This document shows positions 2,351 to 9,191 of a stretch of DNA of 33,826 nt, piece after piece; the first letter of the stretch is position 1, and each line of letters begins with the position of its first letter. The notes under the pieces were generated by a model. It saw only the letters and a list, made by a program, of their open reading frames with translations. It searched no databases and was not told the DNA's origin. The translations under genes were made by a program, and so were the position numbers. Origin of the DNA: an uncultured Spartobacteria bacterium (GTDB lineage Bacteria; Verrucomicrobiota; Verrucomicrobiia; Chthoniobacterales; UBA6821); NCBI GenBank assembly GCA_903823215.1, contig CAIJRY010000180.1, forward strand, positions 1-33,826, read 5' to 3'.

Positions 2351-2462
2351 ACGCCATCGGGGATGGCGGGTTGCAAGTTGAAGGGCTGATAGCGTTTAGA
2401 GAGGCAGTATCAGCAATCACTGAAATCCTTTACTTTTGACGCTTTACCTTTATTGTAAAACT

Positions 2463-2717
2463 ATGACGACAACGATCAGCAGCAAGGGGCAGATCACCGT
2501 TCCCGTGGAGATCCGGGAGGCCTTGGGACTGGAACCCGGCACACGCATTGAGATCCGCATGGGGTCCTCAGGCACCTTCGTTGCCACCAAAGCAAAGGAG
2601 ACCAGCTTCTTTGCCAAATTCAAAGGTGCTGCGGACAATCGCAAGGCACCCTACGCCGATAGCGTCGAAGCCATGGATCTCCTACGCGGCAAAGTCCCCA
2701 CGGGCGATGTTGATTGA
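2463..2717 (+). CDS. AbrB/MazE/SpoVT-type antitoxin
   Basis: MTTTISSKGQITVPVEIREALGLEPGTRIEIRM is a canonical swapped-hairpin AbrB motif; followed directly by a PIN gene. Confidence 0.85.
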   Translation: MTTTISSKGQITVPVEIREALGLEPGTRIEIRMGSSGTFVATKAKETSFFAKFKGAADNRKAPYADSVEAMDLLRGKVPTGDVD

Positions 2718-2726
2718 GCGGAGACC

Positions 2727-3137
2727 ATGATCACGGCCATTGATTCCAACATCCTGATCGATGTGATCGGGCAGCACTCTCGGTTCACCGATCCTTCAAT
2801 CCGAGCCTTGGATCAGGCACGCCAAGAGGGGGCTCTGATCATCTCCCCGATTGTCGTTGCTGAAATCGCCGGACATTTTTCCTCTTTGAAGCATCAGGAG
2901 AAGTGCCTACGGGAGATGGGGCTGAGACTGCTGGATTTGACCATGGCGGATGCATACCTCGCCGGGCAGGCCTACATCGCCTACCGATCTCGGAGCAAAG
3001 ATCCGAAACCTCGTATGCTCGCCGACTTTCTTGTGGGTGCCCATGCTGCGCATCAGTCCGATAGATTGATGACCCGCGACAGAGGCTACTACCGCACCTA
3101 CTTTACCAAGCTCAAGCTGATCGAACCGGAAGTGTGA
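2727..3137 (+). CDS. PIN-domain toxin (VapC-like)
   Basis: MITAIDSNILIDVIG... plus a C-terminal LADFLVGAHAAHQSDRLMTRDRGYYRTYF acidic PIN motif; follows the antitoxin by 9 nt. Confidence 0.85.
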   Translation: MITAIDSNILIDVIGQHSRFTDPSIRALDQARQEGALIISPIVVAEIAGHFSSLKHQEKCLREMGLRLLDLTMADAYLAGQAYIAYRSRSKDPKPRMLADFLVGAHAAHQSDRLMTRDRGYYRTYFTKLKLIEPEV

Positions 3138-3223: not shown

Positions 3224-3427
3224 ATGACCACCAAGGCCGATCCGATGCTCCAATCATGTGATCTGTGTGGATGCCAGAATGCCGTCCAAGTTCATCTGAG
3301 CGAGGAAGTGCTTCGCAAGGTTTCAGGGATGCAGGGTCTTTCGGCTGACGAGTTCCCGGAATGGTGTTGGAAGGGGGCTGTCTTATCGAACGAGGAATCC
3401 GTCGAACACGGGCCCATCTTGGGGTAG
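3224..3427 (+). CDS. Small hypothetical protein with McsA/UvrB-associated-like CxxCxxxxAxVHLxE motif
   Basis: 67-aa ORF MTTKADPMLQSCDLCGCQNAVQVHLSEEVLRKV...; the tail overlaps an antisense ORF, so its status is uncertain. Confidence 0.35.
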   Translation: MTTKADPMLQSCDLCGCQNAVQVHLSEEVLRKVSGMQGLSADEFPEWCWKGAVLSNEESVEHGPILG

Positions 3428-3952
3428 CTTGGGGTTCTCTTTTAAATACGCATCCATCTCTTGGGTAATTTGTAGAACCTCCTTGGCCTTCTGGTCTGAA
3501 GTCATAGAGCGGTCTTCCAGCACACTCCTAGAAGAAAAGGCAATGATGGCATTGGCTTCTCGGATGTTCCTAGGGTTCTTCATCAAGTATGTAAGCTGCT
3601 CAAAGGTGAGCGCCTGTTTGGGTTCAGTGGGGATTTTACTAGGATCTACCCCAGAGACATCAACGGTAATCTTGGGCCGAGGTTCCACAGAAGGGGCTGG
3701 GTTAGCCTGCTGGAGAGACTGCAATGTCTGAAGAGCCGCGAGGTTTTGTTGTAGCTCTGTATCGGCAGCCGAGGCTTTCTTCTTAGGCTTCGACTGGGAT
3801 AGCCGGATCATATCAATGTCCTGCTGCTAGCTGTTAATCTGTTGTTGGAGCCTCCAAGTATCTTGCTGTTGTAGGAGGGTCTGTTGGGCAAAGGCCGATA
3901 CAGGGAATAGAAGGGCTAAGAGTATGGCGGGGGTCTTCATAGTAGTGTTCAT
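3383..3952 (-). pseudogene. Exported Gln-rich hypothetical protein interrupted by one in-frame TAG
   Basis: Reverse strand from ATG at 3952: MNTTMKTPAILLALLFPVSAFAQQTLLQQQDTWRLQQQINS*QQDIDMIRLSQSKPKKK... The TAG is at 3827-3829, in frame with the 142-aa ORF 3383..3811. Confidence 0.7.
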
Positions 3953-4182
3953 AGGAGTAATTGAGGTTAGTTGCAAACAGGATTGGAAAAACAGGGTTGT
4001 TGGGGCTGGATTATTCTCCCTTGATAAGACGGGTGATCGGGTCGAGATCGACTGTGATAGGAAGATCCTTCAGATTTCTATTTTCATTTTTTCTGAATTT
4101 TTTTGGGGGGATTCGTCCGTTTGTGGTGAATCACTCCATGAGGCGGATAATCCCGTCCGCTTCAAAAAAGGAAACACATCTC

Positions 4183-4365
4183 ATGAAATCACTATCCACC
4201 CTGCTCAAAGCAGGAGCTCTGTTTGCTCTCGTTGCCGGATTCGGTATCGCGACCGTCTCGGCCTCCGACGCCTGCAAGAGCTGCTGCAAGACATCTTGTA
4301 GCTCCTGCAAGAAATGCGCGGACGGCAAATGTGCCGATTGCTGCAAATCCAGCTGCTGCAAGTAA
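4183..4365 (+). CDS. Exported cysteine-rich microprotein (60 aa, 11 Cys)
   Basis: MKSLSTLLKAGALFALVAGFGIATVSASDACKSCCKTSCSSCKKCADGKCADCCKSSCCK with a signal peptide (VSA-S). AAAGGAAA ribosome-binding site upstream. The longer ORF-track starts are unlikely. Confidence 0.8.
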   Translation: MKSLSTLLKAGALFALVAGFGIATVSASDACKSCCKTSCSSCKKCADGKCADCCKSSCCK

Positions 4366-4378
4366 TCCCCTCAGCATA

Positions 4379-4410
4379 GCGGGAGCAGTAAAAGAAAAAC
4401 CTGCTCCCGC
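4379..4410 (+). terminator. Hairpin between the Cys-rich gene and the anti-sigma gene (terminator, attenuator or mRNA-stabilising element)
   Basis: Perfect 10-bp inverted repeat GCGGGAGCAG-taaaagaaaaac-CTGCTCCCGC; no T tract follows. Confidence 0.55.
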
Positions 4411-4448
4411 CACCTGATTGGGTTAACATTTCCCTATCCATTCCAACC

Positions 4449-4751
4449 ATGAACCCATCCGACGATCTCTCCCATCTGCTCCAGAGCTGGCAACCGGAGT
4501 CTCCCTTTCCCGGTGATTTCAACCGTGGTGTCTGGACACGCATCGAGGCGATGGAGTCTGGCAAAGGAACCGGCATCCAGGCTCTCCTTTCATGGATTCA
4601 GCTGTTCGCCCGCCCCCGGATCGCCGTTTCAGCCGCCATGCTCGCCATTTTTGCGGGGGTCTTCCTGGGTGGAATCCAGGCCCGATCGTCTCAGGAGGAA
4701 CACTATCTCCAGTCCCTGAACCCCTACGGTTTTCACAGTCATAACAGGTGA
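4449..4751 (+). CDS. Probable single-pass membrane anti-sigma factor (CnrY-like position)
   Basis: Soluble N-terminus (MNPSDDLSHLLQSWQPESPFPGDFNRGVWTRIEAME), then one TM helix (IAVSAAMLAIFAGVFLGGI) and a short periplasmic tail. Call rests largely on gene order. Confidence 0.65.
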   Translation: MNPSDDLSHLLQSWQPESPFPGDFNRGVWTRIEAMESGKGTGIQALLSWIQLFARPRIAVSAAMLAIFAGVFLGGIQARSSQEEHYLQSLNPYGFHSHNR

Positions 4752-4758
4752 CACCCGG

Positions 4759-5184
4759 ATGAAACGGGGAGTTCTCATCCTTCTTGGCATCATCCTTATC
4801 GGCTTTGCCGCCGAACAGGTCGCCGCATATTTCCTTCGTTGTGCCCCTTCGGAGTGGCTCTGTCATGAGTATGGCCTGAAACCGGAGCAGGCTGAGAGGA
4901 TGAAGCTGCTTCAAAAAGAATACGGCTCCCGATGCGGCCCCTTCTGTGATCAGATGTGCGAAGCCAACGCACGACTGGAGCAACTGACCCTTGGCTCTGG
5001 CAGCGTGACGCCGGAGATTCGTACCGCGGTGGCGGAAACGGACCGTATCCGCACCGAAACCCGGCTTGCCATGTTGGAGCATTTCTATGCCGTGGCTGCC
5101 GAGCTACCTCCGGAAAAACGGCGCGCCTATTTGTTGAAGGTTCTTCCTCTGGTCATCGAGTCCTGCGGATCTCAACGGCGCTGA
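4759..5184 (+). CDS. Periplasmic heavy-metal sensor-like protein (CnrX/Spy/ZraP-like)
   Basis: N-terminal TM anchor, then helical LKPEQAERMKLLQKEYGSRCGPFCDQMCEANARLEQLTLGS; five Cys in the first ~80 aa. Confidence 0.7.
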   Translation: MKRGVLILLGIILIGFAAEQVAAYFLRCAPSEWLCHEYGLKPEQAERMKLLQKEYGSRCGPFCDQMCEANARLEQLTLGSGSVTPEIRTAVAETDRIRTETRLAMLEHFYAVAAELPPEKRRAYLLKVLPLVIESCGSQRR

Positions 5185-5753
5185 TGTCTGAAAATGCCAC
5201 GGCCTCGGAAAATATCGATCTGACGGCGATGAGCCGTCTCGCCTCGGGCGAGGATCGTGCTCTGACCGGGATCATGGAGCGTTGGAAGAGTCGCCTGATC
5301 TCCTATCTTGTCCGCTTCACGGGCAGTGAAACCGCCGCCATTGATCTGGCCCAGGAAACCTTTGTGCGTCTCTATCAGGGCCGCACTCGGTTCCGTCCGA
5401 CAACTTCTCCCAACTGCTTCTCCTCATGGATTTTTGGCATCGCCGCCAATCTGGCTCGAAATCACCTCCGCTGGCAATCCCGCCACCCCACACTCCCCCT
5501 CGAAGAGGTGGGCGATCCGGCATCACTTGGTGATCCAAGTCTGTCCGCTGAGACAGCAGAACGCACGACAGCCATTCGGTCTGCCATCGCATCCCTTCCC
5601 TCTGACCTGCGTGAGGCCCTGATCCTGAGCGAATATGAGGCTCTCTCCCATGCAGAGATTGCAATGATTGCGGGATGCTCGGTGAAGGCCGTGGAACGAC
5701 GGATCAGCCATGCCCGGGAACAGCTCCGCGGGGAATTGAAGGCCCTGCTGTAA
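5184..5753 (+). CDS. ECF-family RNA polymerase sigma factor
   Basis: MSENATASENIDLTAMSRLASGEDRALTGIMERW...DLAQETFVRLYQ...(sigma2) and LPSDLREALILSEYEALSHAEIAMIAGCSVKAVERRISHAREQLR (sigma4). ATG overlaps the preceding TGA by 1 nt. Confidence 0.9.
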   Translation: MSENATASENIDLTAMSRLASGEDRALTGIMERWKSRLISYLVRFTGSETAAIDLAQETFVRLYQGRTRFRPTTSPNCFSSWIFGIAANLARNHLRWQSRHPTLPLEEVGDPASLGDPSLSAETAERTTAIRSAIASLPSDLREALILSEYEALSHAEIAMIAGCSVKAVERRISHAREQLRGELKALL

Positions 5754-5774: not shown

Positions 5775-6701
5775 TTATGATCCGCTGGCTCTCCGTTGAT
5801 CAGAGTGATGGTGTCGCGCACGGCGGATTCCAAGGAAAGTCAGTATGGAAGCAGCGCAGACGAGCAATGCCACCGTTGAGGGCTCGGGCACTGCGCTTAC
5901 GAGCAGGGTGGCATTAAAACCGTAAGAGCCTGATGCATCAGCCCCGGCGTTATTTGTCCCGAAATACTGGGCGCCACCGACAAAGATTGAGTAATCACCC
6001 GGACCGAGCAAAAAGGATGCTTGTAGCGTGCCATCGGCATTACCGTCACCGTGGATGGTGTCGTTGGCGAAGGAGACCACATTGTTGCTCGCATCAAGCG
6101 CATAGCCGGTTGTGGCCGGGCTGCTGCCATAGTTGGCTGATGTTCCATCCGCAGCATTCCCGATATAGGTAAAGGAGGCGAGATCGGCGAACGTGGAGCC
6201 GTCATCACTGCCGATCTTCCAATTGCCCAGAGCATCGAAGCTTCCCTCCCAGTTTCCCGCACCGTAGGTGGCGTCATTGTAGGCACTGCTCACGGCACTG
6301 AAATCATGATCCGCCTGCAGCGGCGGCAGATGAGCCAATCCTTGGTAGATCGAAAAGCCCGGCGTCGCCAGAGCACCGATGTTAAGGATGCCTTTTTTGA
6401 AGGCAATGCCTTGGACTTGAAAGGTCACAAGGCCCGTATTTAGCAAGGTGAATTTGAACGCTGTCAGTTTGTGGCTGTCACCGAGATTCGAATCCGTACC
6501 GCTCGCCCAGCCGTAGTTGCCTGTCACCGAATTACTAAGGATGGCATTAGTCGATGTAACGCTGCTGGCAGTCAAAGAACCGAAATCCCTTCCGGTGTAA
6601 TAGATGTGAGCGGAGGCAGTAAAGGTGGTCGCGATGAACGCGACCACCAAAACAAGCATCTGCCGAAGGTTTGCTTTCACAGATTTCACGGGTATGTACA
6701 T
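5775..6701 (-). CDS. PEP-CTERM sorting-domain protein (paralog 1)
   Basis: Signal peptide; C-terminus VPEPSTVALLVCAASILTFLGIRRARHHH is a canonical PEP-CTERM tripartite signal. Confidence 0.9.
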   Translation of the reverse strand: MYIPVKSVKANLRQMLVLVVAFIATTFTASAHIYYTGRDFGSLTASSVTSTNAILSNSVTGNYGWASGTDSNLGDSHKLTAFKFTLLNTGLVTFQVQGIAFKKGILNIGALATPGFSIYQGLAHLPPLQADHDFSAVSSAYNDATYGAGNWEGSFDALGNWKIGSDDGSTFADLASFTYIGNAADGTSANYGSSPATTGYALDASNNVVSFANDTIHGDGNADGTLQASFLLGPGDYSIFVGGAQYFGTNNAGADASGSYGFNATLLVSAVPEPSTVALLVCAASILTFLGIRRARHHHSDQRRASGS

Positions 6702-6712
6702 TCGAAATTCTT

Positions 6713-7567
6713 TTAGGAATTTCCGGCCTTTCTACGTACGAGAAGCCCTGTGATCACGACGGAAAGACCGAGCAGTGCCCATGTGGAGGGCTCAGGAACC
6801 GATGAAACACTGATGCTTCCCTGAACCCCGTATGTTGAGGTGGTATTGGCCCCGGCATTGTTGGTCCCAAAATATTGTCCTCCACCAACGAAGACCGAGT
6901 AGGTTCCCGCCGACAGTGTCCAAGTACCACTTACGACCCCGTCAGCCAAACCATCCCCGTGAATGGTGTCGGTGGCGAAGGAGACCACATTGTTGCTCGC
7001 ATCAAGGGCATAGCCGCTTGTTGCAGGACTGCTTCCATAATTCGCTGATGTCCCGTCAGCTGCATTACCAATGTAGGTGAAGGAGGATAGATCGGCGAAC
7101 GTGGAGCCGCCATCGCTGCCGATCTTCCAATTGCCCAGCGCGTCGAAGCTTCCGTCCCAATTGGTCGTCCCAAGGATGGCGTTGTTGTAAGCCGTGCTGA
7201 TCGCACTGACATCGTGATCCAAAGCGGCAGGGGCCACGTGAGCCAAGCCGCTATAGAGGGAGAAGGCAGGCAATGCCAGCGCATTGGTGACTGAGCCGTA
7301 GGTGTATCCCTGGAAAGTAAGCGAAACGATCGCCGCATTCTGCAGAGTGAAGGTGTAGGCTCGGAGCTTGTGCGTGTCACCAAGATTGGCATCGGTGCCG
7401 CTGGCCCAGCCGTAGTCGCCGGTCACGGCGTTTGAGCCAAGTGTCAGGGTTTCAAGACCGCTGCCTGTGAAGGAACCGAAATTCCGGCCAGTGTAGCTGA
7501 TGTGTGCTGAGGCAGTAGCCGCTGCAGCCAAGCAGAGAAGTGCGATAAGGTATTTGTAAGGTTTCAT
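6713..7567 (-). CDS. PEP-CTERM sorting-domain protein (paralog 2)
   Basis: MKPYKYLIALLCLAAAATASAHISYTGRNFGSF...VPEPSTWALLGLSVVITGLLVRRKAGNS; strongly similar to the adjacent paralog. Confidence 0.9.
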   Translation of the reverse strand: MKPYKYLIALLCLAAAATASAHISYTGRNFGSFTGSGLETLTLGSNAVTGDYGWASGTDANLGDTHKLRAYTFTLQNAAIVSLTFQGYTYGSVTNALALPAFSLYSGLAHVAPAALDHDVSAISTAYNNAILGTTNWDGSFDALGNWKIGSDGGSTFADLSSFTYIGNAADGTSANYGSSPATSGYALDASNNVVSFATDTIHGDGLADGVVSGTWTLSAGTYSVFVGGGQYFGTNNAGANTTSTYGVQGSISVSSVPEPSTWALLGLSVVITGLLVRRKAGNS

Positions 7568-8438: not shown

Positions 8439-8846
8439 TTAGACCAACAAGTCTCTGGGCACCGGCACCGGCGGAGCGTCAGAACGCTCCGGTATCTCGA
8501 CTAATGGAGCCGCCGCATAGACAAGCGGACGGCAGACTGGCAAGGGAATTGAGGAAGCGGATTGGGCAAAAAAACCTTCTGCTTTTTTCTCCGATTTCAC
8601 CGCGGCGGGAGCCTTTCCTTCAGCGGAGCGGGCTTTGGCAATCTTTTTGCACAATGGGCAGGGATGCCGACCATCGAAGGTTTTCTCAACGGCCATACTC
8701 AGGGAACCCGTGCGGGAAAAATCATTGACCATCGTGGTCCAGGCGACGGTCTGGAGCAGGGCGTAATGACCACCTGCTGTAAGGAAAAGAGCCCATGCAA
8801 TCAGCGCATACCCAAATCGTTTGAAATAGGGATGAGCTGCAAACAT
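8439..8846 (-). CDS. Hypothetical membrane-anchored protein with HPCPLCKKI motif
   Basis: MFAAHPYFKRFGYALIAWALFLTAGGHYALLQTVAWTTM...DGRHPCPLCKKIAKA; N-terminal TM. Confidence 0.6.
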   Translation of the reverse strand: MFAAHPYFKRFGYALIAWALFLTAGGHYALLQTVAWTTMVNDFSRTGSLSMAVEKTFDGRHPCPLCKKIAKARSAEGKAPAAVKSEKKAEGFFAQSASSIPLPVCRPLVYAAAPLVEIPERSDAPPVPVPRDLLV

Positions 8847-8939
8847 TGCGTTGACAAATATTCACAACGGCCTGCATGTGTCGAGAAATTCTGATGCAAT
8901 ATCTGGCATCTCGCTGAATCCGTGCGTAGATTGCCCGCC

Positions 8940-9191
8940 ATGAGATTTTTTCCACTCATTGCCGTCCTCCTCTTAAATACAGCGGTCTTTGCAGCCGACC
9001 CCAACCCCTCGCCATATCCACTCACCACCTGCGTGGTCTCCGGCGATAAGCTTGGCGCCATGGGCAGTCCGGTCAGCATCAACTACAAAGGGACGGAGAT
9101 CCGATTCTGCTGCCATGACTGCGATGCCTCCTTCAACGAAAACCCCGCCAAGTATCTTGCAAAATTGAAAGCCTCGACATCGCATCCCTAA
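8940..9191 (+). CDS. Exported YHS/TRASH-like small protein
   Basis: MRFFPLIAVLLLNTAVFAADPNPSPYPLTTCVVSGDKLGAMGSPVSINYKGTEIRFCCHDCDASFNENPAKYLAKL; signal peptide and a YHS-like C...CCxxC pattern. Confidence 0.75.
   Translation: MRFFPLIAVLLLNTAVFAADPNPSPYPLTTCVVSGDKLGAMGSPVSINYKGTEIRFCCHDCDASFNENPAKYLAKLKASTSHP

Follow-up and report, generated by a model that had tools for sequence, protein, structure and literature searches.

A putative CnrYXH-like envelope metal-stress operon headed by an exported cysteine-rich peptide

Why should a tiny exported protein rich in cysteine be encoded at the head of a gene set that ends in an ECF sigma factor? The locus that raises this question lies in a stretch of 33,826 nucleotides (the window) from an uncultured Spartobacteria bacterium, the genome of which is 2.3 Mb, 95.9% complete and not closed, with 'Spartobacteria' MAGs standing closest to it among the named genomes compared. 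An original prediction, made from the DNA letters alone, had placed four genes at 4183-5753 and read them as a metal- or thiol-responsive module. Each is an open reading frame (ORF) at those positions, and the last two overlap by 1 nt as described, base 5184 being common to the stop codon of the third gene and the start codon of the fourth (TGATG). A scan of the window against Rfam gave no match. The module comprises:

4106..4134, + strand: promoter-like element GGGGGATT-N11-GGTGAATCAC, recognized by conservation; putative target of the ECF sigma factor encoded in this operon
4183..4365, + strand: ORF for an exported Cys-rich microprotein of 60 aa with 11 Cys in its mature part; proposed effector, a metal-buffering peptide
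4379..4410, + strand: RNA hairpin with stem GCGGGAGCAG/CTGCTCCCGC, recognized by folding and covariation; proposed expression attenuator or processing element
4449..4751, + strand: ORF for a single-TM protein of 100 aa; predicted CnrY-like anti-sigma factor
4759..5184, + strand: ORF for a TM-anchored helical protein of 141 aa with PF13801; CnrX-like periplasmic metal sensor
5184..5753, + strand: ORF for an ECF sigma factor of 189 aa with Pfam regions 2 and 4

The fourth gene product matches Sigma70_r2 (4.1e-15, residues 31-100) and r4_2 (1.9e-14, residues 130-181) in Pfam, regions 2 and 4 only, as membership in the ECF sigma factors demands; it also matches the NCBIfam sigma70-ECF model, and its PDB matches are ECF sigmas, including CnrH at 1.8e-12. 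The third had been likened to CnrX, and here Pfam (Metal_resist PF13801, E 1.5e-7, 32.1 bits against a curated cut-off of 29.2), sequence matches from phmmer against the PDB (NccX 7e-5, CnrX 6e-4) and the predicted fold agree. The AF2 model (pLDDT 84) consists of a TM anchor and a helical hooked bundle, and its best 15 Foldseek matches in the PDB are all CnrX or NccX (probability 1.00, TM up to 0.76). The likeness extends to family and fold, but not to the metal site: the nickel/cobalt ligands of CnrX, which we take to be H42, H46, E63, H119 and M123, correspond to S31, C35, Q52, H108 and V112, so that H119 alone is kept (as H108). The role of Met123 in CnrX has been addressed previously (PMC7689651). 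A Ni/Co sensor of the CnrX type could be ruled out, as four of the five ligands are not kept and a Cys-based site is present instead.

In the window, the ligand-type residues of the sensor are C35, C59, C63, C67, C136 and H108. Among 60 relatives outside the genus, the recurrent residues are H52 (48), C59 (57), C63 (56), C101 (56) and H108 (53), together with Met at positions 105 (45) and 116 (48). The sensors of the genus have lost H52 and C101, and all 12 carry C35, C67 and C136; at the level of sequence, the genus pairs a very Cys-rich peptide with a rebuilt, Cys-heavier sensor. Such a site might also read the oxidation of a Cys pair, in which case the circuit would answer thiol or redox stress (disulfide or electrophile) and the peptide would be a sacrificial thiol buffer. 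C59-x3-C63 is invariant in the genus and nearly so class-wide (96 of 100% of cells), and Caulobacter NrsF, which stands over a small metal-stress ECF regulon, relies on two Cys that are conserved and periplasmic (PMC3511200). Moreover, thiols left free in the periplasm could become oxidized, a point against the metal-chelating role that we favor below. However, the site combines Cys with conserved His (H108, H52) and Met residues, as a metal site would, the protein has a metal-sensor fold, and the neighboring genes are metal-efflux rather than oxidant-defense genes; we regard a redox circuit as very unlikely.

The second gene product is predicted to be a CnrY-like anti-sigma factor. Its size and topology fit CnrY (class II), it carries motifs in the cytoplasmic part (LL-W...F-VW-RI) and in the periplasmic tail (YL-S-NP), and its homologues precede the sensor gene in 40/40 class-wide loci and in nearly all loci of the taxonomic order. 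CnrY in the PDB was not matched by either the single sequence or a 17-row profile, and no Pfam family was matched; anti-sigma classes have very little sequence in common (PMC7406223). AF2 gave a low-confidence model, too poor for use at an interface, with helices at 3-12 and 21-39 and a TM helix at 56-90.

Linkage in relatives, on which the original prediction had staked itself, holds in every intact locus of the genus: the order peptide, anti-sigma-like protein, sensor, ECF sigma is identical in 12 (the window and 11 others), and the last three genes also stay together class-wide. The peptide gene was found in 13 of 16 genus genomes and the sensor gene in the same 13, with neither in the other three. 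One of the modules (genome G199) has decayed: two contigs (L057, L058) show frameshifts and a deletion in it, and CusB/CusA-type genes lie directly 3' of it. This is consistent with efflux having replaced chelation, though in a single case, part of which may be assembly error. A CusA/CzcA pump above the family cut-off occurs in just two of the 16 genus genomes, G199 being one, and in none of the other 14; a copper-type P1B ATPase above cut-off occurs in all 16.

The peptide itself (MKSLSTLLKAGALFALVAGFGIATVSASDACKSCCKTSCSSCKKCADGKCADCCKSSCCK) has a signal-peptide-like start followed by 11 Cys within its last 31 residues, the number that had been claimed, in a tail one residue shorter than the 32 originally given. 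Nine of these Cys are invariant across 12 orthologues, six of the nine columns use both TGC and TGT, and pN/pS of the mature region is ~0.33 (mean, uncorrected; 12 orthologues), a pattern indicating that the peptide is under purifying selection, Cys codons included, and is not a chance ORF. Three genus members carry an extra C-terminal SCCK. Pfam and NCBIfam searches with the peptide returned no family at E<=1, metallothionein and bufferin models (e.g. DUF2282) included, and together with the PDB search they yielded nothing but non-significant alcohol-dehydrogenase matches.

Being short, exported and Cys-rich, the peptide superficially resembles the bufferins, exported peptides that chelate excess copper and whose clusters include an MNIO modifying enzyme (PMC12452194). 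It might thus be a precursor (a RiPP, bacteriocin or toxin-like product) that is modified and secreted. Yet no MNIO enzyme (PF05114) was found in the window's genome at its 95.9% completeness, the same search being positive in Caulobacter, and on this ground a bufferin or bufferin-RiPP identity was rejected. No gene for modification, export or immunity adjoins that of the peptide, and its orthologues strongly preserve the framework of nine Cys; a precursor of any of these kinds is highly improbable. As an exported chelator that buffers metal, the peptide would probably fill a role resembling that of the bufferins. In another family, the gene for a 12-Cys exported peptide (genome G040) related to that of G038 is not on the contig of the module and has a promoter of the same type, AGGGTTTT...CGGTGTCTTA (in full AGGGTTTTGGAGCAGATCGGTGTCTTA), which suggests that the peptide remains part of the regulon where linkage to the module is lost. 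Separately, two genomes from another family (L068 and L163) encode a CDGSH-like protein close to the gene for the Cys-rich exported peptide.

The region upstream of the peptide gene aligns without gaps and is near-invariant in 12 orthologous loci, with the consensus GGGGATT-N11-GGTGAATYA (aligned form GGGGGATT-N11-GGTGAAT(C/T)AC). When the 16 genus genomes were searched with two mismatches allowed, a perfect core match was found exactly once per genome in all 13 module-bearing genomes, always 5' of the peptide gene, and not at all in the three without the module. That each of these genomes has a single copy of the element points to the first gene as the main output and strengthens the idea that the microprotein is the effector. 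The simplest reading is a sigma factor that regulates its own operon as its one strong target, with weaker targets possible. A broad regulon was discarded in the absence of a second exact copy in any genus genome. In other families, an equivalent site, approximately (A/G)GGG(A/T)TT...GG(T/G)G(T), lies 5' of the first gene or directly 5' of the anti-sigma gene. One two-mismatch site, GGGGATAACTCGYCGAAAGGCGAATTA, was considered as a further target and dropped, as it also occurs in G207, which has no module; it is recurrent, with a conserved hairpin-like core, in G194, G197, G198, G200, G203, G206, G207 and G208.

Between the peptide and anti-sigma genes, bases 4379-4410 fold into a 10-bp stem (MFE -23 kcal/mol, z -6.2). 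In an alignment of 12 sequences, 95% of cells pair and four pairs are changed on both sides; the covariation score was reached by 0/500 shuffles and was lost when the partner was slid. A stable hairpin of different sequence occupies the equivalent place in many other families; none was found at several of the loci with a first gene (L194, L203, L208, L213, L218, L221). We infer that the hairpin sets the ratio of effector to regulator expression.

Beyond the genus, the sensor was found in 98 of 286 class genomes, and 40 loci were fetched. An ECF gene lies nearby on the same strand in 38 of these, and a contiguous anti-sigma, sensor, ECF order of the CnrYXH type occurs in genus and class loci alike. 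A small exported first protein is encoded in at least 17 of the 40, as counted by hand from tables, versus 10 of 266 background genes (p 1e-10, indicative only, as the 17 were picked by eye and a wider upstream range was scanned for modules than for background); none of the ten background genes encodes 3 or more Cys. The first genes fall into several families between which no similarity was detected: Cys-rich (the genus and G038), Cys/Met/His-rich (L214, L216), CP(M/L)MK (L210, L215), YHS-like (L194, L205) and, mostly without Cys, SPRA...APLK repeats (L200, L203, L204, L208, L211, L213, L221). The scanned member (L200) of this exported repeat family (LLSPRAKANQ... ending in APLK) has no Pfam family. 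The position of the first gene is more conserved than its sequence, and the slot would not always hold a thiol chelator, since the first genes of L059, L061, L200, L203 and L204 encode no Cys.

Which metal might be sensed is suggested by the neighborhoods of related modules. Within ~7 kb of these we find CopA-type ATPases (L059, L060), CusA (L061, L066, L067), CusB (L066, L067), copper-resistance-type multicopper oxidases (L071, L073) and DUF3347 proteins. In L066, an unscanned ORF, a CusB-like gene and a CusA-like gene lie, in that order, between the sensor and the sigma factor, and in the closest relative (L046) genes for SCO1 and a CusF-SCO1 fusion adjoin the sigma gene. By tblastn, copper-type genes occur near the module in 9/17 loci of the order versus 0/39 control stretches (Fisher 3e-6), a hand tally that leaves out three non-genus query-source loci and HMBD-only matches. 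The corresponding class figure, likewise tallied by hand from tables, is about 22/40 versus the same 0/39 (Fisher 8e-9), the control stretches being drawn from the order and not from the whole class. In the window, no copper gene of the tested kinds adjoins the module. The metal- or thiol-responsive character originally proposed is supported, and the relatives' neighborhoods sharpen it to copper.

Zinc, cadmium or cobalt could also be involved, because in four genus members an SPC-type P1B ATPase, with its best match among specific models to the cadmium family, is encoded within a few kb of the module. The same circuit might then have Zn(II)/Cd(II), or soft metals broadly, as both signal and cargo, with the peptide acting as a periplasmic zinc/cadmium metallothionein: the rewired sensor site of the genus (H52 and C101 lost; C35, C67 and C136 gained) could shift metal specificity, and CC and CxxC motifs bind Zn and Cd as well as Cu. 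However, the ATPase is encoded on the strand opposite the module and, in the genome of the window, on another contig; the relatives' neighbors are mostly of copper type, and it is SCO1 and CusF-SCO1 that stand beside the module in L046. We consider zinc or cadmium unlikely and prefer Cu(I).

Several other genes surround the module. At 8439-9191, 3 kb away, a small protein with HPCPLCKKI (- strand) and a divergent exported YHS-like protein (+ strand; PF04945 at 5.9e-6 but below cut-off) are both possibly metal-related. A divergent gene for an exported protein at 3383-3940 (- strand) has an upstream region in common with the module and an in-frame TAG after 37 codons, reflecting either a pseudogene or a sequence error. 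A VapBC-like pair, a MazE/AbrB-type antitoxin (PF04014) followed by a PIN-domain toxin (PF01850), lies at 2436-3137 (+ strand). Just 3' of the sigma gene, 5775-7567 (- strand) encodes a tandem pair of exported paralogues, both with a PEP-CTERM-like tail, and similar genes are found near the module in several genus members.

The diversity of first genes among relatives, some without Cys, and the Cus/Cop genes that stand beside the module in many of them, and that could be its real output, would also suit a different division of labor. The first gene might serve in feedback regulation rather than as effector, its secreted product loading metal onto the CnrX-like sensor or stripping it off, with the true resistance genes elsewhere under a looser promoter. 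Against this, the genus has no second exact copy of the element, and 14 of its 16 genomes have no CusA/CzcA-type pump above cut-off; we find this arrangement distinctly unlikely.

Our preferred explanation, which we think probable, is an autoregulated CnrYXH-like envelope metal-stress operon, most likely responsive to Cu(I), that makes an exported metal-chelating peptide. The CnrX-like protein (4759-5184) would use its Cys/His ligands to detect a periplasmic excess of thiophilic metal, most likely Cu(I), and pass the signal to the CnrY-like single-TM protein (4449-4751), which would let go of the ECF sigma factor (5184-5753). The freed sigma would use the element (4106-4134) to transcribe the operon that encodes it, with the exported 11-Cys peptide as the main output, and the hairpin after the first gene would keep mRNA of the effector more abundant than that of the regulator genes. 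By chelating metal in the periplasm, the peptide would both protect the envelope and lower the signal, closing a negative feedback loop. With somewhat less than even confidence, we extend this to a class-wide CnrYXH-like copper circuit with a swappable first slot, in which a conserved sigma promoter and, at most loci, an intergenic hairpin would flank genes for small exported proteins not homologous to one another (Cys-rich, Cys/Met/His-rich, YHS-like or SPRA...APLK repeats); in the window's genus, the slot would hold an unmodified, MNIO-free periplasmic metallothionein as main output in place of Cus-type efflux.

The closest known counterpart is CnrYXH of Cupriavidus metallidurans, which responds to Ni/Co. 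Both have the order anti-sigma factor, CnrX-like sensor, ECF sigma, with a small single-TM anti-sigma factor (predicted here) and a sensor similar in fold and sequence to CnrX/NccX, and the relative L066 includes a CusBA-type pump in the unit, as CnrCBA goes with CnrYXH. In contrast, the module described here keeps one of the five CnrX ligands, with a Cys-based site, and has an anti-sigma factor unrecognizable as CnrY by sequence; it is led by an exported Cys peptide rather than an efflux pump, and its relatives have links to copper genes.

Bacterial metallothioneins such as SmtA and MymT are small, Cys-dense peptides with CC/CxxC motifs, and those known act in the cytoplasm. The peptide here is likewise Cys-dense with CC/CxxC motifs and likely to form a metal-thiolate cluster, but it has a signal peptide, and hence would act outside the cytoplasm, and it belongs to no Pfam family at E<=1. 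The exported copper buffers described recently, the bufferins, are enzyme-modified, whereas no MNIO enzyme was found in the genome here, nor any sequence relation to them.

That a copper-responsive ECF sigma factor with a CnrY-like anti-sigma factor and very few direct targets exists is clear from SigAb-AabA of Acinetobacter, with three direct targets (PMC12153292). The SigAb-AabA-AabB system shares with this module a copper-responsive ECF sigma and a CnrY-like small TM anti-sigma factor (both putative here) and a periplasmic partner. In the text consulted, however, the sigma gene comes first, AabB is not called CnrX-like, relA and a small RNA are among the direct targets, and a Cys peptide is not mentioned (PMC12153292). 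Caulobacter SigF-NrsF likewise sets an ECF sigma and a membrane anti-sigma factor over very few genes, but the anti-sigma factor (NrsF) is a different one, and the part of the account available to us describes no CnrX-like sensor (PMC3511200).

We found no prior account of this system in the open-access papers searched, themselves not the whole literature. If our explanation is right, an exported Cys peptide that is seemingly the sole client of its sigma factor would constitute a minimal circuit for sensing and chelation, with possible use in biosensing or in modeling how metal is buffered in the periplasm. Copper response is also suggested, by the class-wide pattern, as the function of a common, uncharacterized Verrucomicrobial ECF group and of several tiny exported protein families that have no Pfam family and are easily missed in annotation. 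By analogy with these known systems, the module would be CnrYXH-like in its working and bufferin-like in its output.
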